Source: Methanogenium organophilum (lineage in GTDB: Archaea > Halobacteriota > Methanomicrobia > Methanomicrobiales > Methanomicrobiaceae). Taken from it: a stretch of DNA of 64,000 nt. Each line of letters opens with the position of its first letter. Position 1 is the stretch's first letter. The position numbers and the translations under genes were made by a program. Below the pieces are notes generated by a model. The model saw nothing but the letters and a program-made list of their open reading frames with translations. It was not told the origin of the DNA and searched no databases. Location: NCBI RefSeq assembly GCF_026684035.1, contig NZ_CP113361.1, positions 62,001 through 126,000 of the forward strand, written 5' to 3'. Positions 36,608 through 57,572 of this stretch are shown here, piece by piece.

Positions 36608-37579
36608 TTACGCAGAAATGGGTACCTCTGCTTCCGCCTGGGTGATACCCATCACTTCAAAGTTGCCGCGTGACTCAAAGAAGAGTGGCTGGCCATACTC
36701 ATCCACGCCAAATCCGCCGATGAACTCCTGCGTTTCCGGGGTGATGAGGAAGTTGATCCATTCGCGTGCCATCTCACTGTTCACGTAATCAAACATCTCC
36801 GGGTTGATCTGCATCGCACTGTAGACATTCAGGAGGGAATCCCCCTCATCCACGAGCGGCACCAGATCAAGCTCTGTTTTGTAGGAGAGGTATGTTCCCG
36901 AGTCGGAGAGTGTGTATGCAAATTTCTCATTTGCATGGTTCAGGGTTGCACCCATTCCCTGACCGCCTTCGACATACCAGTCACCGGCGCCTTCCACTTC
37001 AGTCTCATAGTCATATCCGGCACTCGTCCAGATCGCCTGCTCCTTGGCATGCGTACCGGAACTGTCCCCCCGTGAAATGAAGACCACATCGGGATTCGTC
37101 TCTGCCGTTGTATAAATCGCGGTCAGTGCATCTTCCGGTGTCATTCCGGCAATACCTGCGGGGTCAGACTCGGGCCCGACGATCATGAAGTAGTTATAGG
37201 CAATACCACGGCGGTTGATCCCGTATCCATCGTCGATGAAGGTGTCTTCACGGGAACGGTCATGGACCATCAGGACGTCAACGTCTCCGCGCTGTCCGTA
37301 TTCAAGTGCCTTGCCTGTCCCTGCTGCGATGATCTGCAGGGTTACATCGTGGTCCTTTTCAAACCGCTCCTGAAGTGCTTCCAGGAGGCCGGTGTTGTCA
37401 AGACTTGTTGTTGTCGCAATCCTTAACAGTTCAGGGTTTGCTGCGGTGTTTGTCCCTTCCGGTGCTGCAGTAGCAGTAGCCGTTGGGGTCCCGACATCAG
37501 AATCCGTCCCGGTGCAACCGGCAATGAAGATTACACTCAATAGGAGGAGTAAAACCAATGCAATTTTTTTTACATCCAT
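36608..37579 (-). CDS. tupA: tungstate-binding lipoprotein
   Basis: 323 residues. Lipoprotein signal ends VIFIAGCTGT (Cys 22). LRIATTTSLDNTGLLEALQE and AAGTGKALEYGQRGDVDVLM with VHDRSREDTFIDDGYG are the TupA signature for oxyanion binding, and ISRGDSSGTHAKEQAIW follows. Captures tungstate outside the membrane for cofactor synthesis in tungsten formylmethanofuran or formate dehydrogenases, as expected in this group. Molybdate cannot be excluded. Confidence 0.92.
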   Translation of the reverse strand: MDVKKIALVLLLLLSVIFIAGCTGTDSDVGTPTATATAAPEGTNTAANPELLRIATTTSLDNTGLLEALQERFEKDHDVTLQIIAAGTGKALEYGQRGDVDVLMVHDRSREDTFIDDGYGINRRGIAYNYFMIVGPESDPAGIAGMTPEDALTAIYTTAETNPDVVFISRGDSSGTHAKEQAIWTSAGYDYETEVEGAGDWYVEGGQGMGATLNHANEKFAYTLSDSGTYLSYKTELDLVPLVDEGDSLLNVYSAMQINPEMFDYVNSEMAREWINFLITPETQEFIGGFGVDEYGQPLFFESRGNFEVMGITQAEAEVPISA

Positions 37580-40499: not shown

Positions 40500-41489
40500 T
40501 CACCGCAAATCCATCCGCATAAACCTGACATAGGCAATGCCGAAAAAGATCACCGGGTATGCAATCAGGAAGAGAATATACCCCCATAACCTGCCCAGCA
40601 TATCGAATAGTTCCGGCTCAGGATAGTCAGTGCTCATATCATCTGACTGGCTTTTAAGGTAATATTCAGGTTTGGTGAGGGCTATGGCAACTTTTCGATA
40701 ATTGTTGTCAATAGAAACATAAAACACCAGATTGGTAAGTTCCATCTGTCTTTGATAGTAGGCACTGGATTGTTCATAATATTCATCGATCTCTGACATA
40801 TCCATATTCTCAGTATTCATTGATGGTTTTGGCCCCATTACAACATCAACAGCAAAATTGCCTGTTGAATAGATGACACTTGTCAAAAGCAGAAACAGCA
40901 GCAGTGAGTAGATAAACGACATCCCGCTTGTCTTCACAAAGGACGAAACCATAACAGACATCACAAAGATTCCTGAGAGATAAAGAATTGTTACAAGCCA
41001 GAATACACATATGAAACCCAGTTCATCCAGTCCCGGAACGATGCTGTATACCAACATAATGCCAAGTGTCAGTACGAAAACAACCGTTACGGCAAACACA
41101 ATTGCAATTATTCCTCCCAGTGCCTTGCCGTTTATAACCTCGTCGCGGTAAAGCGGAACGGACAGCAACGCTTTGATTGAACCGGTTTCCCTCTCTTTTG
41201 TTATCAGGTCAAACCCCAGTGCAATCGCAATTATTGATCCGAATACAGAACCACCTGCAATTCCGGATTTTATCCCCTCAAAAATGTTCATCGCCTTAGG
41301 GAGTCCGAATATTGAATATGCAAGAGGGTCATTGTATCTTTCCAGGGCCTCAAAATAAGACCCGATATCTTTAAAGACATATACTCCTGTTATTGTCAAC
41401 ATCAGAAACAGAAGGGCTAAAAAACGCCGGCTTGTCAGATGGTCCTGAAATTCCTTATATCCAATGAGAATAATCCGTTTAACATTCAT
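40500..41489 (-). CDS. ABC-2 type permease (NosY-like), cassette B second permease
   Basis: 329 residues. An N-terminal amphipathic stretch (LIGYKEFQDHLTSRRFLALL) leads to helix 1, a large outside loop, then FGSIIAIALGFDLITKERET with GSIKALLSVPLYRDEVINGK, the cytoplasmic coupling helix of the COG1277 family. Five more helices follow, interrupted by a second outside loop (about 215-290). It ends IPVIFFGIAYVRFMRMDLR-like, shared with its paralogues at 41.5, 45.4 and 46.4 kb. Forms a heterodimer with the next permease, driven by the ATPase at 42.5 kb. Confidence 0.88.
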   Translation of the reverse strand: MNVKRIILIGYKEFQDHLTSRRFLALLFLMLTITGVYVFKDIGSYFEALERYNDPLAYSIFGLPKAMNIFEGIKSGIAGGSVFGSIIAIALGFDLITKERETGSIKALLSVPLYRDEVINGKALGGIIAIVFAVTVVFVLTLGIMLVYSIVPGLDELGFICVFWLVTILYLSGIFVMSVMVSSFVKTSGMSFIYSLLLFLLLTSVIYSTGNFAVDVVMGPKPSMNTENMDMSEIDEYYEQSSAYYQRQMELTNLVFYVSIDNNYRKVAIALTKPEYYLKSQSDDMSTDYPEPELFDMLGRLWGYILFLIAYPVIFFGIAYVRFMRMDLR

Positions 41490-41505
41490 GTCACACCCCC
41501 CAAAA

Positions 41506-42519
41506 TCATCTCAAATCCATCCGCATAAACCGCACATATGCAATTCCAAAGAAAAGAACCGGCCACATGATGAAGACGATAATTTTCATCCATTTATCGC
41601 CCAGAATTTCCCATAACGACGGTTTTTCAATTCCTTCTGCAATGTCAGGATTGATGGAAAATTCTGAGAAACCGATCCGGCTTATTACATACTTGGAAGG
41701 CATCGTTATCGGGCTGGTTATATCGTTATATACCCGTTGTATTGAAAACAGACTGAAAAAATCATATAATACTGTTCTTTTCTGATTGTATTCATACTGA
41801 ATATTCTCAAATGATTCAACCTGAGATTGCGACCCGAAATCATACTCTTCATCCAACGGTTCCGGCCCGAGCAGGACGGATATGCCAAATTCCCCTCCCC
41901 CAACAGGTATGATGTACATCAGTGTGAAAAGAATAATGAGAGACATAATCAGGGCGCCGCTGCTTGTTTTTGCAAGAACGGAAGACATCAGGGCCAGAGA
42001 GAACGCTGAGATCATAAATAACAGGGTAATCAGCCAGATGACACCTATCAGGAAAAACTCGTCAACTGAAGGAACAATCCCGATAATTAAAAAGATTGCA
42101 AGTACGGTCAGAAATCCTGCGAGAGTTATTATGGAAAGACTGATTATTCCACCGATTGCCTTGCCGTTTATTAGTTCATCGCGATATACGGGTTGTGAGA
42201 GTATTGTCTTTAAGGATTTCCCTTCTTTTTCTCCTGACACGAGATCAAATCCGATTGCAATCCCTATCACCGCACCCAGTCCGTCATGACCAATCGAGTT
42301 GGTAATCTGATTAAATGCCAGAAGGATAGAGGGAAAAAATAAATATCCCACATTTTCGTTTTTATACTTTTCAAGTGCGTCGTTGTAGTTCGTCACACCG
42401 TTAGCGGCTGCAACCCCAAGGACCAGACAGATAATGAAAAGAATCAGGAGAAATCGTCTGCTGGTTATATGATCCGAAAACTCCTTTTTAGAGATTGATA
42501 TCAGGCGGTTCATGTTCAA
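41506..42519 (-). CDS. ABC-2 type permease (NosY-like), cassette B first permease
   Basis: 337 residues, same topology as its neighbour: SISKKEFSDHITSRRFLLIL at the start, AIGFDLVSGEKEGKSLKTIL and SQPVYRDELINGKAIGG in the coupling region, and the shared AYVRFMRMDLR end. Its closer relative is the first permease of cassette A (46.4-47.4 kb). It starts 3 bp after the ATPase stop, so the three are one unit. Confidence 0.88.
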   Translation of the reverse strand: MNMNRLISISKKEFSDHITSRRFLLILFIICLVLGVAAANGVTNYNDALEKYKNENVGYLFFPSILLAFNQITNSIGHDGLGAVIGIAIGFDLVSGEKEGKSLKTILSQPVYRDELINGKAIGGIISLSIITLAGFLTVLAIFLIIGIVPSVDEFFLIGVIWLITLLFMISAFSLALMSSVLAKTSSGALIMSLIILFTLMYIIPVGGGEFGISVLLGPEPLDEEYDFGSQSQVESFENIQYEYNQKRTVLYDFFSLFSIQRVYNDITSPITMPSKYVISRIGFSEFSINPDIAEGIEKPSLWEILGDKWMKIIVFIMWPVLFFGIAYVRFMRMDLR

Positions 42520-42522
42520 TCT

Positions 42523-43446
42523 CTATTCCCTCCTGTAGACCTTCAGGAACAGATCTTCAAGACCTGGCCTCTCAAGGTACATCTCTGTTATGCCGGAGCA
42601 GTTTCCTTTGAGTATTTCTGCAAGTTCGTCTCTTATGTCTCTTTTAACCTGAACCTCAACACCGTTTTTGAGCCTGTTTACTTCCAGAATATCGGGGTTT
42701 GATATGGATTCAATAAAATCATAAACATCCGGGTTTATCGATCTGATGACTATTTTTTGTGAGGTGTTGCTCTGTAAAATCAGTTCGTTCTCTACTTCTT
42801 CAACAGACCCCCGTGCAACAAGTCTGCCCTGTGAGATTATTCCAAGTGTTGTGCAGACCGCCTTTACTTCTGAGAGAATATGAGAACAGATGAGGACGGT
42901 TTTTTCTTCTTTTGCCAGCTGGTTTACGATTTCCCTGTATCTGAGGACACCTTCGGGATCAAGATTTGCGGTGGGTTCGTCAAGAATGACCACTTCAGGG
43001 TCGTTTAGAAGAGCAAGAGCAAGGCCGAGTCTCTGGTTCATTCCCCTTGAATATTCGCCGACTTTCTGCGGGACATCCTGGAGCCTGACACTTTTAAGGA
43101 GTGTTTCAATTCTCTCTTCCCTGTCACTGCTGCTCATGGGATAGAATTTTCCGAGGTAGTCGAGGTTTTCACGCCCGGTGAGATTTTTGTAAAATCCGAC
43201 ATCTTCAGGCAGATAACCAAGAATTTCTTTTCCTTTAAGAGGGTTTAATGCAACGTTTACCCCATTGATGGTGCAGCTCCCCGATGTAGGCTCAATCATC
43301 CCGGTGAGCATGAGAATGGTTGTACTTTTACCTGCCCCGTTTGGGCCTAAAAAGCCGAATACTTCCCCGTCCCCGACTTCTAAATTGAGATTGTCAACAG
43401 CTTTTTTTCCGTTGTATTTTTTGGTGAGGTTTTCTGTGATTATCAT
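42523..43446 (-). CDS. ABC transporter ATPase, cassette B
   Basis: 307 residues from ATG 43446 (MIITENLTKKYNGKKAVDNL). Walker A is GPNGAGKST, the signature EYSRGMNQRLGLALAL, Walker B VVILDEPTANLDP and the switch His SHILSEV. The C-terminal 80 residues (VIRSINPDVYDFIESI and following) are an added domain shared with the cassette A copy. Belongs to the CcmA/NatA export class. Has its own operator-like motif at 43531-43550. Confidence 0.93.
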   Translation of the reverse strand: MIITENLTKKYNGKKAVDNLNLEVGDGEVFGFLGPNGAGKSTTILMLTGMIEPTSGSCTINGVNVALNPLKGKEILGYLPEDVGFYKNLTGRENLDYLGKFYPMSSSDREERIETLLKSVRLQDVPQKVGEYSRGMNQRLGLALALLNDPEVVILDEPTANLDPEGVLRYREIVNQLAKEEKTVLICSHILSEVKAVCTTLGIISQGRLVARGSVEEVENELILQSNTSQKIVIRSINPDVYDFIESISNPDILEVNRLKNGVEVQVKRDIRDELAEILKGNCSGITEMYLERPGLEDLFLKVYRRE

Positions 43447-43530
43447 TTGTTCCCCGCGTATTGATTCTGCAAATGTTCTCTGCAAAAATCCCGTATTTTT
43501 TTATTGCTCCTCCATTAATATGGCGTTTAT

Positions 43531-43550
43531 GGGACAAACACCGAACTGAT
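43531..43550 (-). promoter_or_regulatory. conserved operator-like motif of the exporter regulon
   Basis: The minus strand reads atcagttcggtgtttgtccc followed by ATAAACGCCATATTAAT, a TATA-like stretch, about 85 bp before the ATPase start. It is identical in core to the motifs before the regulator and NEW3 genes. Confidence 0.7.
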
Positions 43551-43738: not shown

Positions 43739-44896
43739 TCAAATTATTGCGATGTCCCGGTATCTAAGGGAAATAATTTCCCCCGTATGGGCATCAATAA
43801 TTGCGGTAGTTGTTAATCGGGAATCTTCATTGCGCATCTTTTCGTCATTGAACGATATGTACCAGATGAGTCTGATCGGCTCTGGCTGCTGAGAGTAAAC
43901 CAATTCCTCCTTATCATACCAAAGAACATTATTCTCGAAGTCGTTCCAGACATGATACTGTATCTGTAGATCTTCACCAGGGTAGCTTTCGCTCAGTTTT
44001 TCTTCCAGAATCTGTTTCGCTTTTCTTTTTGAAATCGTTGGTTCAGGTGAGAGGGTGGTGAGTTTTGTCATCAGTTCAGGGTCTTTTAACTTGTCCCAAT
44101 ATCTAATTACCCTGTCAAGAATCAAATCATATTGCATATACAGTTGGTCATACATGTATTGAACACCATTACAGGTGTTAAATGGAATTATGAAAGCAAG
44201 GCCATTTTCCGAATTTGCATCGGTGTCTATGTTACAAAAAGAAAAATCATTAATCTTCCCATCAACGAAATCATTTCCTTTTACCTTCCGTAAAAATTCC
44301 AGACATTTATCTTCGCTATCTTCAAATGAAACGGTTCGTATCTCCTCCTTTAAAGGCCAGCTCATCGATTCACCGCCATAAAATACAATATTTCCGGATT
44401 CCGGATCGACTCTAATCATTACGATATTAGGGCGTACATTCGCTTCAATTCCTCTTGACCGTAATTTCTGTAACTCCATATATTTTTCAGATGTATCATC
44501 CACATTTTCAAATATGATCCTAGGGGGACCATACGCTGTTGGAACTACTTTTGTCCCATACCCGGAATCATGATCCACCCAGTATCCGTCAAGTGTTGAC
44601 CGATCTACATCGGGATATATTCGTACGATTTCATCCTTTGCTTCTTCAATCAGTCTCTGTTTGGTCTGTTCATCGTATTCAGGATAGATATCCGACCATG
44701 AGAGCACCGGGTCGGTATTATCTGATTGGGCTGATTGCGGCGTTGCCGGGGCGGGAGTTTCAGCTGCTGTGGTTGCTGTTGCAGCAGGAGCGTTTTCAAT
44801 ATTCCCAGCATTAAGCATGGTGCAACCAGAAATCAGGATGACACATATGATACATGACAAAACAGTTCCCGTTAGAATTCTTTTTTTCCCTGACAT
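43739..44896 (-). CDS. PepSY-like lipoprotein
   Basis: 385 residues from ATG 44896. Signal: GTVLSCIICVILISGCTMLN with lipobox Cys. A Thr/Ala/Pro-rich linker is followed by DIYPEYDEQTKQRLIEEAKD and, near the C-terminus, KRKAKQILEEKLSESYPGED and TTAIIDAHTGEIISLRYRD, the alpha-beta layout of PepSY/YcdB-like domains. Related to the two lipoproteins at 48.4 and 49.7 kb but clearly diverged. Likely works with the exporter at the outer membrane face; role unknown. Confidence 0.8.
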   Translation of the reverse strand: MSGKKRILTGTVLSCIICVILISGCTMLNAGNIENAPAATATTAAETPAPATPQSAQSDNTDPVLSWSDIYPEYDEQTKQRLIEEAKDEIVRIYPDVDRSTLDGYWVDHDSGYGTKVVPTAYGPPRIIFENVDDTSEKYMELQKLRSRGIEANVRPNIVMIRVDPESGNIVFYGGESMSWPLKEEIRTVSFEDSEDKCLEFLRKVKGNDFVDGKINDFSFCNIDTDANSENGLAFIIPFNTCNGVQYMYDQLYMQYDLILDRVIRYWDKLKDPELMTKLTTLSPEPTISKRKAKQILEEKLSESYPGEDLQIQYHVWNDFENNVLWYDKEELVYSQQPEPIRLIWYISFNDEKMRNEDSRLTTTAIIDAHTGEIISLRYRDIAII

Positions 44897-44941
44897 AGTG
44901 TTCCTCACATTTTTGAATGAAAAAATTACATCCATTTTCAA

Positions 44942-45249
44942 CCGGTCGATAACCGGATTTCTTCATGTGTTCTTCACCGTTGTTTGTTCAGTCGTTTTGA
45001 AGGGGTTTTATCAGGATTGGTATATACAGGTTGCACATGATTTTTGTGTGATTTCATGACGAAATGGTGTGTATTAAACCCCTTCATTACGGAGCCGAAC
45101 AGGCGGGAAAGGATAATAAAAACTGCAGGTGAATGGTGAACTAACCCTTCCCTTTGCAAATGAATTGTCCTTTCCGGAAAAGTGAGAGGTGAATGTTCTC
45201 CACTGTTTCTCCGATAAAGAATTGGAAAACGTCATATTTATGCTTTCTA
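44942..45249 (-). ncRNA. homologous structured 5' leader, copy A
   Basis: Between the divergent promoter and the lipoprotein gene. Bases 44999-45008 (GAAGGGGTTT) and 45076-45085 (AAACCCCTTC) are perfectly complementary over 10 bp, enclosing a smaller stem ATTTC/GAAAT (45051-45065). The same layout with different bases is seen at 51.4-51.5 kb. It may be an mRNA leader or a separate RNA. Confidence 0.45.
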
Positions 45250-45293
45250 GGACAAACGCCGAACTGATTTCAAACCGTTCGGTGTTTGTCCCA
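45250..45293. promoter_or_regulatory. divergent operator-like inverted repeat
   Basis: GGACAAACGCCGAAC (45250-45264) and GTTCGGTGTTTGTCC (45277-45291) form an inverted repeat with one mismatch. Each half is followed outward by a TATA-like sequence (ATAAATATG on the minus side, ATAAACTATATC on the plus side), so it looks like a shared control site for two opposite promoters. Confidence 0.72.
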
Positions 45294-45381: not shown

Positions 45382-46377
45382 TCACCGCAAATCCATCCGC
45401 ATAAACCTGACATAGGCAATGCCGAAAAAGACTGCCGGGTACGCAATCAGGAAGAGAATATATCCCCACATAGGTGCAAGTGCCTCCCTTACCGGAGGCA
45501 ATGTTCTGTCAAAATTTCCCGGATCTTCATCTGGTGAGATGCTCTGAGACCGTAACAGGACATCGGAGATCTTGTGATAATTTCTTCTATATGACAGGTA
45601 TGAAGCAATCTGAATGATATTCTCCTTCTTCTCATTATATGCTAAAGACATTTCATATAAGACAGGATCATTATCATCAAGACCTTTATACTCTTTTACA
45701 GGGTCAGAAATGACGTAGTTTGCTGCAAAACTCCCTATTGTAAAAACCATTGTTGTTAAAACAAGAAGAGTAAGTAATGAAATGATAAGTGACATTCCAC
45801 TTGATTTTGCAATGGTTGAAATCATTACAGACATAATAAAAATTCCGGATAAATACAGATTGGTAATCGCCCAGAATGCAAAAAAATAGCTTAACTCACT
45901 TGTGTCCGGAACAATTGAATTTAAGAGCAGAATGGCAAATTCAAGTGCAAAAAGAATTGTTGTTGCAAGTATGATCACAATTATGCCGCCAAGCACTTTT
46001 CCGTTTATAACTTCATCCCTGTAAACAGGAACAGAGAGCATAGTTTTTAACGTTCCGGCCTCTCTCTCTTTTGTCACGAGATCAAAACCAAATGCGATTG
46101 CAATTATTGGCCCATATATTCCTATCTCAATAGATCCCCTGATTCCTTCAAAGATACTCAGTGAGTACGGTATATTAGAGAGAGCATAAACGAGATCAGC
46201 GGGGGCAAACGGGGCATTAGCATAATAATCAACAAGAGAAAAATAATTCCCGATCTCAGAAAACACCTGAATTGTGCATAGTGCAATGAGTAGGAATAGG
46301 AGTCCAAGAAAACGAAGGCTTGTGACGTGATCATGTGTCTCTTTTATAGCAATTAGTTTAATTCTTGTAAGATTCAT
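45382..46377 (-). CDS. ABC-2 type permease (NosY-like), cassette A second permease
   Basis: 331 residues. LIAIKETHDHVTSLRFLGLL, IAFGFDLVTKEREAGTLKTM and SVPVYRDEVINGKVLGGIIV match its cassette B counterpart at 40.5 kb, as does the FFGIAYVRFMRMDLR end. Last gene of the longer cassette. The end region also shares long DNA runs with 40.5 kb (e.g. accgcaaatccatccgcata). Confidence 0.88.
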   Translation of the reverse strand: MNLTRIKLIAIKETHDHVTSLRFLGLLFLLIALCTIQVFSEIGNYFSLVDYYANAPFAPADLVYALSNIPYSLSIFEGIRGSIEIGIYGPIIAIAFGFDLVTKEREAGTLKTMLSVPVYRDEVINGKVLGGIIVIILATTILFALEFAILLLNSIVPDTSELSYFFAFWAITNLYLSGIFIMSVMISTIAKSSGMSLIISLLTLLVLTTMVFTIGSFAANYVISDPVKEYKGLDDNDPVLYEMSLAYNEKKENIIQIASYLSYRRNYHKISDVLLRSQSISPDEDPGNFDRTLPPVREALAPMWGYILFLIAYPAVFFGIAYVRFMRMDLR

Positions 46378-46384
46378 TTCTTTG

Positions 46385-47392
46385 TCACCTCAGATCAGCC
46401 TTCATAAATCTCACATATGCAATTCCAAAGAAGATAACAGGCCACAAAATAAACACAACAACTTTTCCCAACTGATCATCAATAAGAGACCAGAATCCTG
46501 GCTTTTCACGTTCTTCAGGACTATCTGGATCTGTTGATTTACCAAAATCCTTTCTTGCCTGATATGTAGAAGGTGCAATTATCGGGAGCGTAATATCATC
46601 ATATATCTGTTTTATTGAAATTGAATGGAAAAAATCGTTTATGGCCCTTTTTTTATTCTGGTACTCATTGTTTTTTTCCTGAAATTCGTACATCTCTGAA
46701 CCGGAATTAAACGATTGTGATGATGGTACCGGCGGCTGGCCCAGCAGTATATGGTTTGTCAGAGCTGCAAGACCAAAAGGGAGAACAAACAATATCAGGA
46801 AAATTATAGCAAGGGAAAGAATCAGAGAAGCACTACTGGTTTTTGTAATTACCGATGTCATTAACGCAAGTGAGAATGATGTAATCATGAACAGAAGGGT
46901 GATAATCCAGATTATCCCAATTCCAAGCAATTCATCCAGATTAGGCACAATTCCAAGAATAAGCATGACTGCAATGACAAAGATAAAACCCGTAACTGAA
47001 ATTACCGTAAGGGTTGCTACTCCACCGATTGCTTTTCCGTTTATCAGTTCATCACGGTAAACGGGCTGGGAGAGTATTGTCTTTAATGTTCTTCGTTCTC
47101 TTTCACCTGAAATCAGATCAAAACCAAGTGCCAGACCAATGATTATGCCAAGACCTTCTGTACCAATTCCGGTTACAATTCCTGAAAAGACCTCAACAGG
47201 TGACGGGAGGAAAATTATATGCGAATATCCGGCCCCGTAGGCTTCAAGTAATTCATTGTATTTAACGACCCCGTTTGCCGCTTTTACGCTTAGAAACAGA
47301 CAAAATAGTGCCAGGATAAATATGAGCCTTTTACTTCCGATATGATCAGAAAACTCTTTTTTTGAGATAGTAGACAGTCTTGAGAGATTCAA
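46385..47392 (-). CDS. ABC-2 type permease (NosY-like), cassette A first permease
   Basis: 335 residues. STISKKEFSDHIGSKRLIFI, IGLALGFDLISGERERRTLK and ILSQPVYRDELINGKAIGG are the family landmarks. The final residues are VRFMKADLR, with Lys-Ala in place of the Arg-Met of the other three. It starts 1 bp after the ATPase stop and ends 7 bp before the next permease. Confidence 0.88.
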   Translation of the reverse strand: MNLSRLSTISKKEFSDHIGSKRLIFILALFCLFLSVKAANGVVKYNELLEAYGAGYSHIIFLPSPVEVFSGIVTGIGTEGLGIIIGLALGFDLISGERERRTLKTILSQPVYRDELINGKAIGGVATLTVISVTGFIFVIAVMLILGIVPNLDELLGIGIIWIITLLFMITSFSLALMTSVITKTSSASLILSLAIIFLILFVLPFGLAALTNHILLGQPPVPSSQSFNSGSEMYEFQEKNNEYQNKKRAINDFFHSISIKQIYDDITLPIIAPSTYQARKDFGKSTDPDSPEEREKPGFWSLIDDQLGKVVVFILWPVIFFGIAYVRFMKADLR

Positions 47393-47393
47393 T

Positions 47394-48320
47394 TTATCCC
47401 TCCCTCCTGTAGACGTTTAAAAATAAGTCTTCAAGGCCGGGTCTGTCGAGATACATCTCTGTTATGCCTGAACAGGTTCCTTTGAGTTCTTCTGCAAGTC
47501 CGGGTCTTATATCTTTTTCAACCGAGATTTCAACACCATCTTTGGTTCTTGCGATTTCTAAAATATCAGGGTTTTTAATGGATTCAATTTTGGTGTAAAG
47601 CTCAGGGTTGATAGATTTGATAACAATTTTCTGATGAGTGTTGCTCTGTCTGATGAGTTCATCTTCAACCTCTTTGACGGATCCTTTTGCTACAAGTTTC
47701 CCCTGTGAGATTATACCAAGTGTCGTACATACGGCTTTCACTTCGGATAGAATATGAGAGCAGATGAGGATGGTTTTCCCGGCTTCTCTTAGTTCATTAA
47801 CGATTTCCCTGTATCTTAAGACACCTTCAGGATCAAGGTTTGCAGTCGGTTCGTCAAGGATTACTACCTTTGGATCATTTAGGAGTGCCAGTGCGAGACC
47901 AAGTCTTTGGTTCATTCCTCTTGAGTATTCTCCGACTTTTTGTGTGACGCCATTTAGTCTGACACTCTTTAACAGAGTTTCAATTCTATCTTCCCTCTCC
48001 CGATCATTGATGGGATAGAATTTTCCCAGATAATCAAGATTTTCATATCCGGTTAAATTGGCATAAAATCCTACATCTTCAGGGAGGTAGCCGAGAATCT
48101 CTTTTCCTTTGAGTGGATCAAGTGCTACATTTACACCATCAATTGTACAGGTACCGGATGTCGGTTCTATCATTCCGGCGATCATAAGGATTGTTGTACT
48201 CTTTCCTGCGCCGTTTGGGCCAAGAAATCCAAATACTTCCCCTTTTCCTATCTGAAGGTTGAGATTGTTTACCGCTGGCTTTCCGTTATACTCCTTTGTG
48301 AGGTTTTGTGTTTTTATCAT
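47394..48320 (-). CDS. ABC transporter ATPase, cassette A
   Basis: 308 residues, roughly three quarters identical to the cassette B ATPase by eye. Walker A GPNGAGKSTTIL, signature EYSRGMNQRL, Walker B VVILDEPTANLDPEG, switch ICSHILSEV. Shares the same 80-residue C-terminal extension. Drives the two permeases encoded directly after it. Confidence 0.93.
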   Translation of the reverse strand: MIKTQNLTKEYNGKPAVNNLNLQIGKGEVFGFLGPNGAGKSTTILMIAGMIEPTSGTCTIDGVNVALDPLKGKEILGYLPEDVGFYANLTGYENLDYLGKFYPINDREREDRIETLLKSVRLNGVTQKVGEYSRGMNQRLGLALALLNDPKVVILDEPTANLDPEGVLRYREIVNELREAGKTILICSHILSEVKAVCTTLGIISQGKLVAKGSVKEVEDELIRQSNTHQKIVIKSINPELYTKIESIKNPDILEIARTKDGVEISVEKDIRPGLAEELKGTCSGITEMYLDRPGLEDLFLNVYRREG

Positions 48321-48350
48321 GTATCCTGCCCTTTTCTTTGATTTTGAGTG

Positions 48351-49526
48351 TCAGTCATAATTTTTTCCAAAAATCTTGATCTTGCTATTATGCAGGGAAA
48401 GGATCTCTCCGCTGTTGGCATCGATGGCGGCCCATACATTACGATCTCCCCAACTACGGGATTCTTCTGTTTTGAATGAGATTCCCCATGCCAGAGGAAC
48501 AGGGCTTAAAAGATAGCCGTCTTCTATGTCCATATACGGACTCGAATCAAGCCAAAACAGACAGTTTGTAAATTCCTTTTCCGGATTGTACTCAATTTTC
48601 TGTGGATCGTCAGGATACAGTTCATCCAGTTTTGCTTCAAGAATTGCTCTTGCTTCTTCCAGAGATATTTCAGGAACAGGAGATAATGTTACAGATTTTT
48701 TAAAGAATTCTTCATCGTTAAATTCATCGCCATATGCGAGTATCTCGCCAGTTGCCCTGTTGAAATAGATCTGTGTCTTACCCATATATGATTTAACGCC
48801 ATTACGGGTTTCGCGTATATGTGCAACTGTTGTCAGGGGCATATTGCCACTGTCTACCAAGTAGATGAAGTAGTTGTTTTTATTCTTCTCATACTCTTCA
48901 TCACCGATCATTCTCTTTAAGATGGGAATTATGTCCCTCTCTATATCGACATCCTCGTGGCGGATTATTTCACCACTACTTTTATCACGGATTGGTGAAT
49001 CAGGGGTATAATACCACCAGACAATTCGTCTTTTTTCAGCATTATAAGCAACTAATTTACAAACATTATCCGGCTCGTCCGTATCCACAATCACACCTTC
49101 AAAGACGATTATAGGTACAAAGAATGTGCCGGCCCGTTTTGCCTCCCAGTGATAATTATTCAGTGAAGAAGTGCTTAATTTGGGGAATACTCGCAAAATT
49201 TCAGTTTTTGCGTCGTTGAGAAGGTTTTTTTCTTTTTCAGAGTCGTATTCAGGTATTGCTTTATTTTTTTCTTTGGCAGATACCACTCCTGGCAGTTTTA
49301 CAGGTTCAGGAAGTTTTACATCTGCGGATTTAGCAGCACTCTCTGCTGCCGGATTCCCGGCAGTTCCTTCTTGCTGAATTGCCTCGATATTCGCATCTTT
49401 TGGTGCATCGGCAGCTTTGGTTGTGACTGTGCCTGCTCCTGAATTCTCGGTGCATCCTGAGAAGAGTACAGCCGACAAGGTGATTCCCACCAGAATTACT
49501 GATATGACCAATTTTCTCATCGTCAT
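48351..49526 (-). CDS. PepSY-like lipoprotein, tandem copy 2
   Basis: 391 residues: lipoprotein signal ending SAVLFSGCTENSGAGTV, Ala-rich linker, then EYDSEKEKNLLNDAKTEILR, LSTSSLNNYHWEAKRAGTFF and a C-terminal unit ISLEEARAILEAKLDELYPD ending WAAIDANSGEILSLHNSKIK. It is a tandem duplicate of the gene at 49.7-50.9 kb, with long stretches identical. A 23-base conserved stretch (starting cccttttctttgattttgag) lies at both gene ends. Confidence 0.8.
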   Translation of the reverse strand: MTMRKLVISVILVGITLSAVLFSGCTENSGAGTVTTKAADAPKDANIEAIQQEGTAGNPAAESAAKSADVKLPEPVKLPGVVSAKEKNKAIPEYDSEKEKNLLNDAKTEILRVFPKLSTSSLNNYHWEAKRAGTFFVPIIVFEGVIVDTDEPDNVCKLVAYNAEKRRIVWWYYTPDSPIRDKSSGEIIRHEDVDIERDIIPILKRMIGDEEYEKNKNNYFIYLVDSGNMPLTTVAHIRETRNGVKSYMGKTQIYFNRATGEILAYGDEFNDEEFFKKSVTLSPVPEISLEEARAILEAKLDELYPDDPQKIEYNPEKEFTNCLFWLDSSPYMDIEDGYLLSPVPLAWGISFKTEESRSWGDRNVWAAIDANSGEILSLHNSKIKIFGKNYD

Positions 49527-49699
49527 TTTTCATGAACTCCGTTTATCTTGTAAAGAGGGGAAAATCTGCCAGATGAGCCAAAGATTTCCCCTTTTCCAAC
49601 ATGGAGTTTGAACTCATTTCCGCCCGATTCGCCACCATGTTTTTTCGTGAAATTTGCAGATTCTGCCATGTATTTTGCCCTTTTCTTTGATTTTGAGTG

Positions 49700-50887
49700 T
49701 CAATCATAATTTTTTCCAAAAATCTTGATTTTGCTATTATACAGGGAAAGGATCTCGCCGCTGTTGGCATCGATGGCGGCCCATATATCACGATCTCCAT
49801 AACTGCGGGATTCTTCTGTTTTGAATAAGATTCCCCATGCCAAGGGTATGGGACTCATAATATAATTCGGCGAAGTATTGTAGTCTCCCTTAAGATTCAG
49901 GAATTGTGTCCTGTCCATCCAGAACAGACAGTTTGTGCATTCCCCTTCCGAACTGTATTCAATATTCTGCGGATCGTCAGGATACAGTTCATCCAGTTTT
50001 GCTTCAAGAATTGCTTTCGCTTCTTCAAAAGAGATTTCAGGAACGGGGGACAATGTTACAGATTTTTTAAAGAATTCTTCATCGTTAAACCTGTCTCCAT
50101 ATACCACTACCTCCCCAGTTGCCCTGCTAAAATAGATCTGTGTATTACCCATATATGATTTAACGCCATTACGGGTTTCGCGTATATGTGCAACTGTTGT
50201 CAGGGGCATATTGCCATTATCTGCCAAGTAGATGAAGTAGTTGTTTTTATTCTTCTCGTACTCTTCAGCGCCGATCATTTTCTTAAAGATGGGAATTATG
50301 TCCCTCTCTATATCGACATCCTCGTGGCGGATTATTTCACCACTGCTGGTATCACGGATTGGTGCATCCGTGGAATAATCCCAATGGACAATCCGCCCTT
50401 TTTTCGGGTCATAATAAACTCTCTTACAAACATTATCCGGCTCGTCCGTATCCACAATCACACCTTCAAAGACGATTACAGGTACGAAGAATGTGCCGGC
50501 CAGATTTGCTCCCCAATGATAATTATTCAGTGAAGAAGTGCTTAATTTTGGGAATACTCGCAAAATTTCAGTTTTTGCGTCGTTGAGAAGGTTTTCTTCT
50601 GTTTCAGAGTCATATTCGGGCATTACAGCTGTATCTTCCGTAATAGAACCTGGAAGTTTTACAGGTTCGGGAAGTATTACATATGCGGATTTAGCAGCAT
50701 TCTCTGCTGCCGGATTCACTTCAGTTTCATTCTGTTGATTTGCCGGGACATTTGCATCTTTTGGTGCATCGGCAGTCAAGGTTGTGACTGTGCCTGCTCC
50801 TGAATTTTCGGTGCATCCCAACGTCATTGCGACAGAGATGGTAATGACTACCAGGGCAATTAGTATAACCGGTTTTTTATTATTCAT
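49700..50887 (-). CDS. PepSY-like lipoprotein, tandem copy 1
   Basis: 395 residues from ATG 50887 (MNNKKPVILIALVVITISVA then MTLGCTENSGAG; GGAGGGG precedes). A longer upstream frame overlaps the small secreted-protein gene and is not favoured. Body and C-terminus match the next lipoprotein closely (SSLNNYHWGANLAGTFFVPV; WAAIDANSGEILSLYNSK). Differences concentrate in the linker and around residues 325-345 (FWMDRTQFLNLKGDYNTSPN), which may be the ligand side. Confidence 0.8.
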   Translation of the reverse strand: MNNKKPVILIALVVITISVAMTLGCTENSGAGTVTTLTADAPKDANVPANQQNETEVNPAAENAAKSAYVILPEPVKLPGSITEDTAVMPEYDSETEENLLNDAKTEILRVFPKLSTSSLNNYHWGANLAGTFFVPVIVFEGVIVDTDEPDNVCKRVYYDPKKGRIVHWDYSTDAPIRDTSSGEIIRHEDVDIERDIIPIFKKMIGAEEYEKNKNNYFIYLADNGNMPLTTVAHIRETRNGVKSYMGNTQIYFSRATGEVVVYGDRFNDEEFFKKSVTLSPVPEISFEEAKAILEAKLDELYPDDPQNIEYSSEGECTNCLFWMDRTQFLNLKGDYNTSPNYIMSPIPLAWGILFKTEESRSYGDRDIWAAIDANSGEILSLYNSKIKIFGKNYD

Positions 50888-50945
50888 TTTCCCCTCCGTT
50901 TTTATAACAAAAAATGGTGATTTTGGTTGATTTGAACTCCCTTGC

Positions 50946-51362
50946 CTACGGAGACGCATATACTGTGCTACCCGCAGAACCCACATTACAGTAATTCCGT
51001 GTCATTGGATTATAAGGGGATTCATAAAGGTTAACATCCTGGTTGGTGCTGTAGTACCCTAAGAGCGGAGTTGTCAACGATGTGGTGACGCTACCTGTCG
51101 AATATGTTACAGTACCCGGGGCAGCATCTGTTCCAAGAACCTCGAGATTGATATTGATCTGCTCAGGACCGGTGTAACTCTCACCGGAGCCTTTGTATAA
51201 ATAGCCATATTGATAGCTTGAAGCCTGTCCGTAAGCTCCTACCCGATAGTCGTCGTCTGTGTAATAATGCCAACCCGCACTAACCGGCCCGACAAGTATT
51301 GCACTTGCAACAAGCATCATGACAAGCAGAATGCCTGTTTTCTTTAAATTGAAAGTTTTCAT
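50946..51362 (-). CDS. small secreted protein, candidate cargo of the exporter locus
   Basis: 138 residues from ATG 51362: FNLKKTGILLVMMLVASAIL then VGPVSAGWHYYTD, a clean signal peptide with cleavage after VSA. The mature part is rich in Tyr, Gly, Ser and Thr (YGQASSYQYGYLYKGSGESY; TYSTGSVTTSLTTPLLGYYS) with one Cys. First gene after the promoter at 51.64 kb, ahead of two lipoproteins and the ABC genes. Its signal peptide and leader are shared with the frameshifted gene at 52.3 kb. Function unknown. Confidence 0.72.
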   Translation of the reverse strand: MKTFNLKKTGILLVMMLVASAILVGPVSAGWHYYTDDDYRVGAYGQASSYQYGYLYKGSGESYTGPEQININLEVLGTDAAPGTVTYSTGSVTTSLTTPLLGYYSTNQDVNLYESPYNPMTRNYCNVGSAGSTVYASP

Positions 51363-51641
51363 TTTCTTCACCTTTGTGTTCGGTTTTTTGTTTGGTTTTT
51401 GAAGGGGCTGATAAGATCCGGATTGGTGTATACGCATGGTGCATGGAATCTTCCTGAAGATTCCTTCATGCGCAGGTATGCTACAGGGAAACCCCTTCAA
51501 ACGGGGCTTTGAATCCCGGAAAGGATACAATCCTGCACCTTTGATGAAAACAGGTACATTTTTCTTCCCGTACAGTGGGTAAGAGCAACTCCTCCACTGT
51601 CCTTAGATAAACATAAAAAAATGTCATATTTATGCTTTCTA
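51363..51641 (-). ncRNA. homologous structured 5' leader, copy B
   Basis: Bases 51398-51407 (TTTGAAGGGG) and 51492-51501 (CCCCTTCAAA) are perfectly complementary over 10 bp. Inside, GGAATCTTCCTGAAGATTCC (51445-51464) is a near-perfect palindrome forming a stem-loop. Against copy A the outer stem keeps GAAGGGG but its flanking pairs have moved, and the inner stem has wholly different bases while still pairing. Confidence 0.5.
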
Positions 51642-51684
51642 GGACAAATGCCGAACTGATTTCAAACCGTTCGGTTTTTGTCCC
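51642..51684. promoter_or_regulatory. divergent operator-like inverted repeat
   Basis: ggacaaatgccgaactgat on the minus-gene side and gttcggtttttgtccca on the plus side, with the same centre (ttcaaacc) as at 45.27 kb. TATA-like ATAAATATGAC (minus) and ATAAACTATATC (plus) follow. Confidence 0.72.
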
Positions 51685-51822
51685 ATAAACTATATCTGTC
51701 CAAAAAGGCGGAGATGGTTATCAAATCTTGCTGAAAATATGAAAATCAACATTTCGCGGGTAATTTTTAAAAACAGTTGCATATATCCATTCAAACAGTG
51801 AAAACAAGAGAGTGATTTCTGT

Positions 51823-52608: not shown

Positions 52609-52897
52609 ATCTTCTTTCCCTTTTTAGTTGTTTTACCTTTTTTCCAAAAGGGTCGTTTCAATCTGGATTTCTGTCTTCAAAGACTACACAGAATCTTCCA
52701 TAATATACTTTCATGCAGGGATTTTGCAATGAAGCCCCTTTCAATATGGGGCCTAAACAGGCCGAAAAGAAAATAACAGCAGGTGAAAAGTGAACTGGTT
52801 CCCCCCTGCAAATGAATTTCCCTTTCGAACAGTGAGAAATGGAATGCCCTCAACTGTCCCTAACTATACTTGAAAATAGTCCTATTTATGTTTTCCA
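52609..52897 (-). ncRNA. homologous 5' leader, copy C
   Basis: Shares order of landmarks with copies A and B (tgcaggtgaa-like gcaggtgaaaagtgaac, ccctgcaaatgaatt, aacagtgagaa). The outer stem is weaker: AAAGGG (52647-52652) with CCCTTT (52736-52741). Sits between the 52.9-kb promoter and the frameshifted gene. Confidence 0.4.
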
Positions 52898-52932
52898 GGA
52901 CAAACACTGAACTGATTTCTGTGTTTGTCCCA
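52898..52932. promoter_or_regulatory. divergent operator-like site, shortened
   Basis: ggacaaacactgaactgat on the minus side; on the plus side only ctgtgtttgtccca is left, as the central ttcaaaccgttc was lost. TATA-like ATAAATAGG (minus) and ATAGACCATATG (plus) follow. Confidence 0.6.
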
Positions 52933-53811: not shown

Positions 53812-53832
53812 ATCAGTTCGGCGTTTGTCCCA
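53812..53832 (+). promoter_or_regulatory. operator-like motif before the small peptide and regulator 1
   Basis: cagttcggcgtttgtccca followed by AAAAATATTATATC. One base differs from the consensus (gcg for gtg). Confidence 0.68.
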
Positions 53833-53868: not shown

Positions 53869-54033
53869 ATGATAATATCCGGGATCAGATTATGCGCAAT
53901 CCCAGCAATCTTGCTGATTTCAGTTATTCTGGTTCAAACTGTTTCGGCAAAAAAGGATGCCGCCAATTCCATCAGCCCATTAGTCTACGGAGAACAGGTT
54001 GCCTCATCCAGGACATACCAATTTACTGTTTAA
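53869..54033 (+). CDS. 54-residue predicted secreted peptide
   Basis: Starts ISGIRLCAIPAILLISVILV then QTVSA, a textbook signal peptide with a likely cut after VSA, leaving about 27 residues (KKDAANSISPLVYGEQVASS plus RTYQFTV). It lies 37 bp after the operator motif and 21 bp before regulator 1. In the second repeat unit the same DNA keeps only GEQV before a stop, so the peptide has no twin there. A relic of a longer surface protein is the alternative. Confidence 0.45.
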   Translation: MIISGIRLCAIPAILLISVILVQTVSAKKDAANSISPLVYGEQVASSRTYQFTV

Positions 54034-54054: not shown

Positions 54055-54837
54055 TTGAAATTACCCGTGATTATCATCATCTTTTTGCTTTTTTTTGTCA
54101 CAATAGCAGATGCGACTGAATATACCATAACACCTTCAAGAAATGTGGGCAAACCCCCGGGGACTTCATTTGATGGTGAAATAGTCCGTGAACTGCAACC
54201 GATTCCTGTATGGTTTGCAGTACTTCTGACAATATTTCCACAGCTGGCTGTTATAAATCTTGAATCATTTATCGTTTTCAAATCATCAGTATACATTTGT
54301 TATGTAAAAATAAAACAAGCAAGATCCCGTTCCAGAGAAAAAAAAGAGGCAATATACGACCTGATAAAAATGAATCCCGGGATGCACTTCAGGGAACTTC
54401 AGCGAAAAACCGGTCTGAAAAAAGGGACATTTGAATACCACATAAAAAATATGGAGCATGAAGGACAGGTAAAAGCAGTACAAAATAATAGAAAGGTCCA
54501 TTATTTCATAAATAATTCAACGTATTCTCCGGAGGAAATGAAGATCATTTCTGTCATGAATAATGAATCCCTGAAAAATATTCTTTTAGAAGCCTCTACG
54601 AAACCCCTCATCACCAATAAAGAGATTGCTGAGAATTTAGAACTATCAAAGTCATCAGTAAGTGAAAAACTGAATTATTTAAACGATATTGGGATTCTGA
54701 ATGCAAAAAAAGAAGGCTGGTACACGTTTTATGAAATATCAAAGGAATACGATGATGCAATTCCGAATTATATCGCCAACGATATGTATACTGAGCAAAA
54801 CAGAATTGTACAGAAAGAAAGAATATCCTCATTGTAA
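54055..54837 (+). CDS. membrane-anchored double winged-helix regulator, copy 1
   Basis: 260 residues. The N-terminal hydrophobic segment LPVIIIIFLLFFVTIADA and a second (VWFAVLLTIFPQLAVINLES) place about 45 residues outside. Inside are two wHTH domains: IYDLIKMNPGMHFRELQRKT with GLKKGTFEYHIKNMEHEGQV (about 97-140) and LITNKEIAENLELSKSSVSE (about 185-205). The start codon is probably TTG 54055: copy 2 has ATGAATTTG where copy 1 has CTGATCTTG. Likely senses something at the envelope and controls the motif-bearing promoters. Confidence 0.85.
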   Translation: MKLPVIIIIFLLFFVTIADATEYTITPSRNVGKPPGTSFDGEIVRELQPIPVWFAVLLTIFPQLAVINLESFIVFKSSVYICYVKIKQARSRSREKKEAIYDLIKMNPGMHFRELQRKTGLKKGTFEYHIKNMEHEGQVKAVQNNRKVHYFINNSTYSPEEMKIISVMNNESLKNILLEASTKPLITNKEIAENLELSKSSVSEKLNYLNDIGILNAKKEGWYTFYEISKEYDDAIPNYIANDMYTEQNRIVQKERISSL

Positions 54838-54946
54838 CAGATACTGGCCAAAACAGGGGCAATGAAGAACCTGTTAGGATAAACTGTTTCCATTTTGCAA
54901 TGTTATTTTATTCCAAATTTTATTTGAATCTCAACATACATTCGCC

Positions 54947-54967
54947 ATCAGTTCGGTGTTTGTCCCA
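54947..54967 (+). promoter_or_regulatory. operator-like motif before regulator 2
   Basis: cagttcggtgtttgtccca followed directly by ATAAAATATATG, the best TATA-like box of the set. The regulator start is 132 bp downstream. Confidence 0.72.
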
Positions 54968-55098
54968 TAAAATATATGTTGTATCAAAATATAATTCAAA
55001 TGAATGATATTGTCCGGAAATCTATCTTTGATGTTTCCGGAGAGCAGGTTGTTTAATTCAGGTGATACCAGTTTCCTGTTGAAAATCCCCAGAGAGTC

Positions 55099-55887
55099 AT
55101 GAATTTGAAATTGCCGGTAATCATCATCATCTTTTTGCTTTTTTTTGTCACAATAGCGGATGCGACTGAATATACCATAACACCTTCAAGAAATGTGGGC
55201 AAACCTCCCGGTTCAGCAATTGATGGTAAAATAGGCCATGAAGCACAACCAATCCCTGTATGGTTTGCAGTACTTCTGACAATATTTCCACAACTGGCTG
55301 TTATAAATCTTGAATCATTTATCGTTTTCAAATCATCAATATACATTTGTTATGTAAAAATAAAACAAGCAAGATCCCGTTCCAGAGAAAAAAAAGAGGC
55401 AATATACGACCTGATAAAAATGAATCCCGGGATGCACTTCAGGGAACTTCAGCGAAAAACCGGTCTGAAAAAAGGGACATTTGAATACCACATAAAAAAT
55501 ATGGAGCATGAAGGACAGGTAAAAGCAGTGCAAAATAATGGAAAGGTCCATTATTTCATAAATAATTCAACGTATTCTCCGGAGGAAATGAAGATCATTT
55601 CTGTCATGAATAATGAATCCCTGAAAAATATTCTTTTAGAAGCCTCTACGAAACCCCTCATCACCAATAAAGAGATTGCTGAGAATTTAGAACTATCAAA
55701 GTCATCAGTAAGTGAAAAACTGAATTATTTAAACGATATTGGGATTCTGAATGCAAAAAAAGAAGGCTGGTACACGTTTTATGAAATATCAAAGGAATAC
55801 GATGATGCAATTCCGAATTATATCGCCAACGATATGTATACTGAGCAAAACAGAATTGTACAGAAAGAAAGAATATCCTCATTGTAA
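55099..55887 (+). CDS. membrane-anchored double winged-helix regulator, copy 2
   Basis: 262 residues, nearly identical to copy 1 with a repeat period of 1050 bp. Differences cluster in the outside loop (copy 2 GSAIDGKIGHEAQP, copy 1 GTSFDGEIVRELQP); the two DNA-binding domains differ by about one residue (NGK for NRK). It keeps a proper ATG. Same family and predicted topology as copy 1. The change in the outside loop only suggests different inputs to the same targets. Confidence 0.88.
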   Translation: MNLKLPVIIIIFLLFFVTIADATEYTITPSRNVGKPPGSAIDGKIGHEAQPIPVWFAVLLTIFPQLAVINLESFIVFKSSIYICYVKIKQARSRSREKKEAIYDLIKMNPGMHFRELQRKTGLKKGTFEYHIKNMEHEGQVKAVQNNGKVHYFINNSTYSPEEMKIISVMNNESLKNILLEASTKPLITNKEIAENLELSKSSVSEKLNYLNDIGILNAKKEGWYTFYEISKEYDDAIPNYIANDMYTEQNRIVQKERISSL

Positions 55888-56004
55888 CAGATACTGACCA
55901 AAACAGGGGCAATGAAGAACCTGTTGGGATAAACTGTTTTCATTTTCGAACGTTTTTCGATTTTTAAATATTTATTATTATTTGAACTATTGCATGTACT
56001 TGTA

Positions 56005-56025
56005 ATCAGTTCGGTGTTTGTCCCA
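56005..56025 (+). promoter_or_regulatory. operator-like motif before the NEW3 protein gene
   Basis: cagttcggtgtttgtccca followed by GAAACATCATCAATC; the TATA-like box is weaker than in the others. Confidence 0.65.
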
Positions 56026-56117
56026 GAAACATCATCAATCAAAAAACCAATACAATATTTGTGGCATTATAATCCGCGGGAGTGGATTATAAAAATAAAT
56101 ATGAATGGATGGATTAT

Positions 56118-57572
56118 ATGAATAAAATCAACAAAATTATGAAAATTCTCCTTGTAACCACAGTTATAATGATGTTTTTTGGGGGGATTGTAAATCCCGT
56201 CATGGGGGAGACACAGGATGCATCAAACATAAAGGTCTCATGTAAATACCCTGGAAAAGTTATAGAGGCTGGTGAAACCGTCATTTTTGATCTTGTCATT
56301 AAAAATTCGGCAACCACCAATTATCCAAAAATGCTGCGTGTTGATACATTCAAAGGTGAGGAAGACTGGAAATTCAGGTTTTTAACAGAGGGTGGGGAAA
56401 TTGACCGCATTGCCTATTCAGGAGGAGAAACAGACACCATTCAGCTTGAAGTAAAAACCACAGGAGATACTCCTAAAGATACCTACCCATTTCGATTCAG
56501 CGTTGACAGTGGAAAACTCTGGCTATATATAACAATAAAAGAGTCACACGCTGGCGAAAATGGTATCTTAAAACTCGAAGTTGTTAACGAGCAGGGTGAA
56601 AAGATAGATGGTGCTACGGTATCCGTATTCCGGGGAAAAAGCACATCTGCAGATATGGTTGTTTACTCTATGGCAGACGGAAAAATCCGAACGGATCTTG
56701 ATCAGGGAGAATACCGGATTTTAATTGAGAAAAACGGCTATTTAAGTAGGGAGATTGAGGATCTAAATATTCAGAGCGGATACACAGAAGACATTGATAC
56801 GGTAATGCTTGAAAGAAAAAATTTTGGCCTTGATGTCGATGTAAAAACTCCGGTAACAACCTCATTGATTGGACAAAAACCCGTTTATGAGATAGATCTC
56901 ATGAATGTAGGGAAAAGTGATGATCTTTTCTGTCTCTCCTCAAACAATATGCCTGAAGGATGGTATGGACGATACAAAGAGACGATTGATTCTAAAAGTG
57001 AATTGTCAGAAATTTTCATAAAAACGGGTGAAGAAAAAACCGTATTTTTTGAAATAATTCCACCGTATTCAGTAATGAAAGGAGATTATAGTTTTAATTC
57101 AGTTATCAACTCAACGGACGGTATGGAGTACATTACAGAACTTAAGGCAATAATAAAGGGGAGTTCTGATCTGCAGGTATTCTCTGAAAAATATCTCTAT
57201 GAGATTACAAAAGGCAAAACTGCAGAGGTACCGGTTACAATTTTAAATGACGGAAATGGTGTGGCCCTCACAAATATAATAGTCGAAGTCTCTGCGCCTG
57301 AGGGGTGGAAAATTACCACATCTCCAGAAACAATACCAAGTATTGAACCGGGAGAGAGAAAAACGGTATTCCTTACGGTTGTACCCCCTTCAGATATCGC
57401 AGCTTCCGAGTACAAGATTACCACAAATGTGATCTCCGATCAGGAAGAAGTAACAGATAGTCTCAGGATTGTCGTAAATGAAAGCTCAATGATTGGTGTA
57501 TTTGGAATTATTCTTATGATTACTGCCGCAGGGAGTGTGATTTATATGTACAGAAAATATGAACGGCGATGA
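56118..57572 (+). CDS. NEW3-type surface protein with C-terminal membrane anchor
   Basis: 484 residues from ATG 56118. Signal peptide (ILLVTTVIMMFFGGIVNPVM then G), then repeated beta-sandwich domains: KVIEAGETVIFDLVIKNSAT (about 45), a carboxypeptidase-regulatory-like unit GILKLEVVNEQGEKIDGATV with RILIEKNGYLSREIEDLN, and NEW3-type units (YEIDLMNVGKSDDLF; EVPVTILNDGNGVALTNIIV with APEGW). A C-terminal helix (MIGVFGIILMITAAGSVIYM) ends YRKYERR. Proteins of this kind are often encoded beside NosY-type ABC permeases and may be their outside component. Confidence 0.85.
   Translation: MNKINKIMKILLVTTVIMMFFGGIVNPVMGETQDASNIKVSCKYPGKVIEAGETVIFDLVIKNSATTNYPKMLRVDTFKGEEDWKFRFLTEGGEIDRIAYSGGETDTIQLEVKTTGDTPKDTYPFRFSVDSGKLWLYITIKESHAGENGILKLEVVNEQGEKIDGATVSVFRGKSTSADMVVYSMADGKIRTDLDQGEYRILIEKNGYLSREIEDLNIQSGYTEDIDTVMLERKNFGLDVDVKTPVTTSLIGQKPVYEIDLMNVGKSDDLFCLSSNNMPEGWYGRYKETIDSKSELSEIFIKTGEEKTVFFEIIPPYSVMKGDYSFNSVINSTDGMEYITELKAIIKGSSDLQVFSEKYLYEITKGKTAEVPVTILNDGNGVALTNIIVEVSAPEGWKITTSPETIPSIEPGERKTVFLTVVPPSDIAASEYKITTNVISDQEEVTDSLRIVVNESSMIGVFGIILMITAAGSVIYMYRKYERR

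Follow-up and report, generated by a model that had tools for sequence, protein, structure and literature searches.

Two adjacent regulator genes of a methanogen, R1 and R2, have, on the evidence of trees and silent sites, undergone recent gene conversion over about 690 bp, ending at a short loop predicted to lie outside the membrane, and this event accounts for the contrast between their differing loops and the near-identity of the rest. The best explanation of the resulting pair, to which we give a confidence somewhat better than even, is that two receptor variants, homogenised downstream of the loop, would feed one local operator set or regulon. The genes lie in a window (the whole stretch of DNA analysed, 64,000 nucleotides, C1:62001-126000) of a single-contig 2.65-Mb genome of the genus Methanogenium. 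What is most interesting at this locus is that homogenised DNA-binding ends occur together with loops that different species share, a set of operator-like sites and a wider family of regulators with a partner gene, X.

Anatomy of the tandem pair

By sequence comparison, R1 (54055..54837, plus strand) encodes a membrane-anchored regulator of 260 aa with two winged helix-turn-helix domains (wHTHs), a conserved TTG start and a loop of type A. Its tandem paralog R2 (55099..55887, plus strand), with a loop of type B, counts 262 aa if read from an ATG gained at 55099 and 260 aa if read from the conserved TTG at 55105. The tandem duplication with a 1050-bp period described by an earlier sequence-only reading is confirmed as a direct repeat, and the two proteins are 97% identical. 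The 5' flanks share 68% identity over the 72 bases ahead of the start, and the resemblance stops again just past the stop codon. The two genes differ at 21 codons (12 synonymous, 9 non-synonymous), and seven of the nine amino-acid changes fall within the loop, GTSFDGEIVRELQP in R1 and GSAIDGKIGHEAQP in R2.

Both proteins match PF13412 and PF24266 above cut-off, which predicts a DNA-binding domain, and the AF2 model of the regulator displays two wHTHs with a pLDDT of 65-87 in that part; the AF2 models were built on 2-3 sequences and their overall pLDDT is low (62 for X, 61 for the regulator). Hydropathy, used here in place of a dedicated topology predictor, reveals a hydrophobic N-terminus and, further on, another hydrophobic stretch with basic residues after it, a predicted transmembrane segment. 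By this predicted anatomy, R1 and R2 are one-component transmembrane transcription regulators, for which NCBIfam holds no specific name. Both reading frames and both operator-like sites are intact, and dN/dS of the regulator copies against their CSMAG_280 counterpart is about 0.2-0.3. At codon 146 (54490-54492), in the turn of the wing hairpin, R1 carries Arg, and R2 and nearly all orthologues carry Gly (a few Asn or Ser); this Gly-to-Arg change may alter DNA binding by R1.

The orthologous regulator is present in only three Methanogenium genomes, that of the window, Methanogenium sp. CSMAG_280 and M. cariaci JCM 10550, the latter two with one copy each at the corresponding locus. Their comparison reverses the earlier suggestion that R1 had lost its ATG: the codon opposite the R2 ATG is CTG in R1, CSMAG_280 and M. 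cariaci, so that CTG is the ancestral state. The proposed TTG start of R1 is supported: GAGGG or GAGAG stands eight nucleotides ahead of the TTG in all copies, and the GAGGG-N8-TTG start is conserved. By this evidence the TTG start is ancestral and the upstream ATG was acquired by R2.

Gene conversion and the contrast between loop and DNA-binding part

The conversion tract comprises the membrane helix, both wHTHs and the 3' flank. It covers 54205..54896 (plus strand) on the R1 side, with 4 differences in 633 coding bp, and 55255..55946 (plus strand) on the R2 side, as delimited by trees, dS and codon differences. Among the 17 loop codons (34-50), 12 differ, five of them by synonymous changes only and seven by non-synonymous ones; codons 51-260 hold four differences, two of each kind, and downstream of the loop the copies are 99.4% identical. 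Nei-Gojobori estimates give a dS of 0.95 and a dN of 0.25 in the loop, where the comparison rests on only about 13 synonymous sites, against 0.016 and 0.004 outside it: dS is 60-fold lower outside the loop than within, and dN/dS is 0.26 in both.

The trees change at the same place. Considering the sites that split R1, R2, CSMAG_280 and M. cariaci two and two, all 30 informative sites from 54205 onward pair R1 with R2, and all eight in the loop pair R1 with CSMAG_280 and R2 with M. cariaci. The AU test rejects the grouping of R1 with R2 for 54055-54204 (p 0.0013) and rejects its alternatives for 54205-54837 (p < 1e-5). The longest identical run between the copies extends over 78 polymorphic columns, a length reached in none of 20000 shuffles. 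Segment-wise discordant trees and a local collapse of dS are thus found together, as in gene conversion between tandem paralogs. In the first codons, three sites agree with the loop pattern and two others pair R1 with R2, a mixture that makes a small second conversion tract possible there.

Silent changes are not removed by purifying selection on a DNA-binding domain. Because the contrast sits in dS while dN/dS is equal, it points to gene conversion and not to selection. The sequence-only reading had observed a practically unchanged DNA-binding part and a changed loop, which is correct insofar as seven of nine amino-acid changes are in the loop, but the silent sites are nearly unchanged too, and codon 146 does differ between the copies. 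Its interpretation, a recent duplication followed by purifying selection on the wHTHs and diversifying selection on the loop, we regard as very improbable. The concentration of amino-acid changes in the loop speaks for it; the equal dN/dS and the 60-fold difference in dS rule out a selective contrast, and amino-acid changes in the loop are rarer per site than silent ones, the outcome which that reading had itself named as contrary to its idea. Moreover, the loop types are common to other species at silent sites, and exceptional silent-site constraint on the wHTH DNA is disfavoured by CSMAG_280, which differs there at a dS of 0.25. More improbable still is an artefact of assembly: a near-identical tandem of 690 bp is indeed hard for assemblers, but the genome is a single contig and the copies differ in their upstream DNA, in their remnants of X and at many positions beyond the tract.

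Two loop types shared with other species

The loop of R1 (codons 34-50, 54154..54204, plus strand) is of type A, with the ancestral motif G-E-x-V, and the corresponding codons of R2 (55204..55254, plus strand) are of type B, with the derived motif G-K-I-G. In trees and codon comparisons the R1 loop groups with that of CSMAG_280 (GTSFDGEVVHELQP) and the R2 loop with that of M. cariaci (GTAIDGKIGHEAQP), the matches including synonymous sites in both cases. The outside segment is strongly conserved in the orthologous group (EYTVRPSRNVGKEPGTSxSGExVQEIDPIPLW or similar), and the type B loop alters residues otherwise invariant in the family. Since G-E-x-V occurs in R1 and, across several families, in 20 distinct relatives including all outgroups, and G-K-I-G is confined to R2 and M. 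cariaci, A is the ancestral type and B a derived one. Between species both types are conserved, with a dN/dS of 0.20 for A and 0.09 for B, on few sites. From these comparisons, A and B either predate the split of these Methanogenium species or were exchanged between them. A third paralog elsewhere in the genome was rejected as the source of a loop, nothing there exceeding about 30% identity. The draft M. cariaci JCM 10550 locus (L121) contains several small frame breaks at G/C runs, including in the X and regulator genes, which are probably sequencing errors.

An operator-like site and its putative targets

A 16-bp operator-like site, TTCGGTGTTTGTCCCA, lies ahead of R1, R2, the gene at 56082 and the exporter units. 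The window contains 11 matches with at most 3 mismatches where 0.66 would be expected, and of the ten sites in the whole genome that deviate from the pattern by no more than 1 mismatch, nine fall in the same 19 kb. Pattern search placed sites on the plus strand before R1 (53817..53832, TTCGGCGTTTGTCCCA, with the ATG of an X remnant about 36 nt downstream), before R2 (54952..54967, TTCGGTGTTTGTCCCA) and before a surface-protein gene (56010..56025). The latter gene (56082..57572, plus strand) encodes, by profile match, a membrane-anchored NEW3-domain protein (PF10633) and by synteny is a neighbour of the regulator in CSMAG_280 too.

Further upstream, inverted pairs of sites occur in three intergenic regions, at 52896..52932, at 51640..51685 before a minus-strand unit (51360-45382) encoding a secreted protein, two lipoproteins, an ABC ATPase and two permeases, and at 45248..45293 before a minus-strand lipoprotein gene (43739-44941). 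A single minus-strand site (43530..43545) precedes a minus-strand ABC-2 exporter operon (43485-40500). The three inverted pairs are not independent, because they are located in related duplicated DNA; the flanks of the R1, R2, 56010 and 43530 sites are less alike. The segments 40500-43485 and 45382-51360 are related exporter units comprising lipoproteins, an ABC ATPase and a pair of ABC-2 permeases; both follow the same type of site, and this cluster also exists in M. cariaci. No plus-strand gene is evident downstream of the plus-strand halves of two inverted pairs, 45278-45293 and 51670-51685. A match at 37442, inside the coding sequence 36608-37579, was set aside as probably due to chance.

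CSMAG_280 and M. cariaci likewise carry the site ahead of the orthologous operon. In members of two other families, three in total, it accompanies the regulator in forms such as ATCGGTGTTTGTCCCA. Near some orthologues, for example L107-L109, L017 and L018, no such site was found. No cluster of sites was found in four genomes of the same genus that lack the regulator; this, together with the concentration in 19 kb, led us to reject a general promoter element. In R1, CSMAG_280 and three further relatives (G055, G128, G125), X or what remains of it begins with an ATG about 35-37 nt past the site, which places the site right beside the position expected for TATA. An activator helping TBP/TFB and a repressor blocking them would both fit this position. 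From association and co-conservation, we infer that the regulator binds the site directly. The protein families of the targets allow a guess at a role in cell-surface export or envelope stress.

The partner gene X

In relatives, the gene immediately before the regulator encodes X, a secreted protein of 150 residues with a PPC domain (PF04151); about 12-28 nt separate the X stop from the start of the regulator. An adjacent, co-encoded partner outside the membrane, arranged as in ToxR/ToxS, is thus found in relatives only: X is intact in CSMAG_280 and others, and only remnants of it stand ahead of R1 and R2. Compared with relatives, the remnant before R1 (53869..54033, plus strand) retains 54 codons, in which the signal peptide runs on in frame into the end of X, and that before R2 (55000..55056, plus strand) retains 18 codons and has lost the signal peptide. 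The former reads as a secreted mini-X (signal peptide, motif NSISP, end of X) directly past the operator-like site, and could be a remnant or a functional peptide.

Across this genome and the order, X precedes 60 of the 100 distinct regulators having enough upstream sequence. Outside the window, the same genome carries more pairs of a PPC-like X and a membrane wHTH regulator (L003, L005, L006, L007, L010), which often share a strand motif. This short motif past the signal peptide is alike in X and regulator, as in EKNGYIVRSGYD/TKKGYVVTSGYD and NGYIVTPAGDTD/GGYIVKPAPETD. Similarity within modules exceeds that of shuffled pairings for 52 modules (z about 7-8) and for 22 modules below 45% identity (z about 4, p <= 3e-4), an identity filter that only partly removes shared module ancestry, with segments cut by hydropathy and manual corrections. 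Modelled by AF2 from two sequences (pLDDT 62), X shows the motif as a strand at residues 33-37, and the best fold matches include PPC-bearing subtilases, with weak scores. This modelling suggests that the outside segment of the regulator imitates or competes with the strand of X.

Extending this, X and regulator could together make up a signalling system of Methanomicrobiales encoded by two genes, where the outside segment of the regulator would mimic the N-terminal beta-strand of X and signal by strand competition or exchange; in the window genome X would have been lost, and two loop variants would drive one operator set with DNA-binding ends kept identical by conversion. We offer this larger scheme tentatively and think it less probable than not. 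No description of the X-regulator pair was found in the open-access literature.

Proposed function of the pair

R1 and R2, each consisting of a signal peptide, a short segment outside, one membrane helix and a cytoplasmic pair of wHTHs, derive from a two-gene module in which the secreted PPC-domain protein X is encoded just upstream of the regulator. Recent gene conversion in the window genome has homogenised the sequence downstream of the loop, and the loop and first codons have kept two types. Because everything downstream of the loop is nearly identical, R1 and R2 should read the same DNA, most likely by binding the operator-like site that adjoins the TATA position in the promoter of each gene; further targets would be the surface-protein gene at 56082 and the units of lipoproteins and ABC-2 exporters, whose export function is presumed from their families. 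Two outside inputs, possibly different ligands or partners, would thereby be connected to one local regulon. The idea of two sensors with different signals and one set of sites had been reached through a logic of selection that does not stand; the conclusion remains plausible on other grounds, namely the old shared loop types, the 99.4% identity downstream and the same type of site before both genes.

Two alternatives bear on this model. The loss of X before both copies means that the pathway could be decaying, and the pair might then be a passive remnant, redundant or degrading, whose loops sense nothing and differ only because the tract happened to end there. The cutting of X to its two short remnants and the changed wing glycine of R1 would agree with this, but the intact frames and sites in both copies, the dN/dS against CSMAG_280 and the conservation of the loop types between species, albeit on few sites, make it unlikely. 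Somewhat less doubtful, though still short of probable, is an acquisition of the type B loop, or of the whole R2 copy, from a M. cariaci-like strain by transfer or recombination, followed by homogenisation downstream; this is a question of origin and is compatible with the dual-input model. It would explain why the R2 and M. cariaci loops differ at only 4 of 54 bases (92.6% identity, 81% in the rest) and have a dS of 0.285 against 0.457 in the rest, and it fits the single copy at the locus in CSMAG_280 and in M. cariaci. These are few sites, however, the R2 5' flank is not specially near M. cariaci (73.6%), whose assembly is a draft, and ancient duplication with differential loss fits equally well.

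Outside-in signalling in archaea is poorly understood. If the dual-input model is correct, the same DNA-reading half, two old loops and an identifiable operator set would amount to a compact natural experiment, in which the effect of 14 outside residues on transcription inside could be directly asked. The locus also points to a large family of gene pairs of secreted partner and membrane regulator in methanogens.

Comparison with known systems

Methanomicrobia are listed as enriched in transmembrane transcription regulators (TTRs), of which ToxR/ToxS and TcpP/TcpH are examples (PMC10269533). Like R1 and R2, TTRs combine a DNA-binding domain and a membrane helix in one protein, and some are encoded together with a partner located outside the membrane (PMC10269533), as the regulator of relatives is with X. 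Unlike ToxR/ToxS-type TTRs, R1 and R2 have an outside segment of only about 30 residues and two archaeal-type wHTHs, and the partner in their family is a PPC-domain protein encoded upstream, lost at both copies here. A membrane regulator pair sharing a promoter is also known in Archaea: ArnR and ArnR1 of Sulfolobus acidocaldarius are membrane-bound one-component paralogs with the shared promoter flaB (PMC6396743), likened to R1 and R2 by description and not by homology. They differ in regulating the archaellum and pili, and conversion with a spared loop is not reported in the abstract. The closest precedent for the evolutionary pattern comes from the same archaeal order: mtrA-1 and mtrA-2 of Methanomicrobiales and Methanococcales are paralogs of the same operon whose main domain was homogenised by gene conversion while another remained distinct (PMC4632066). 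In these methyltransferase genes, what stays distinct is a transmembrane domain acquired through fusion (PMC4632066), whereas in R1 and R2 it is the short outside loop of a regulator, in variants common to other species.
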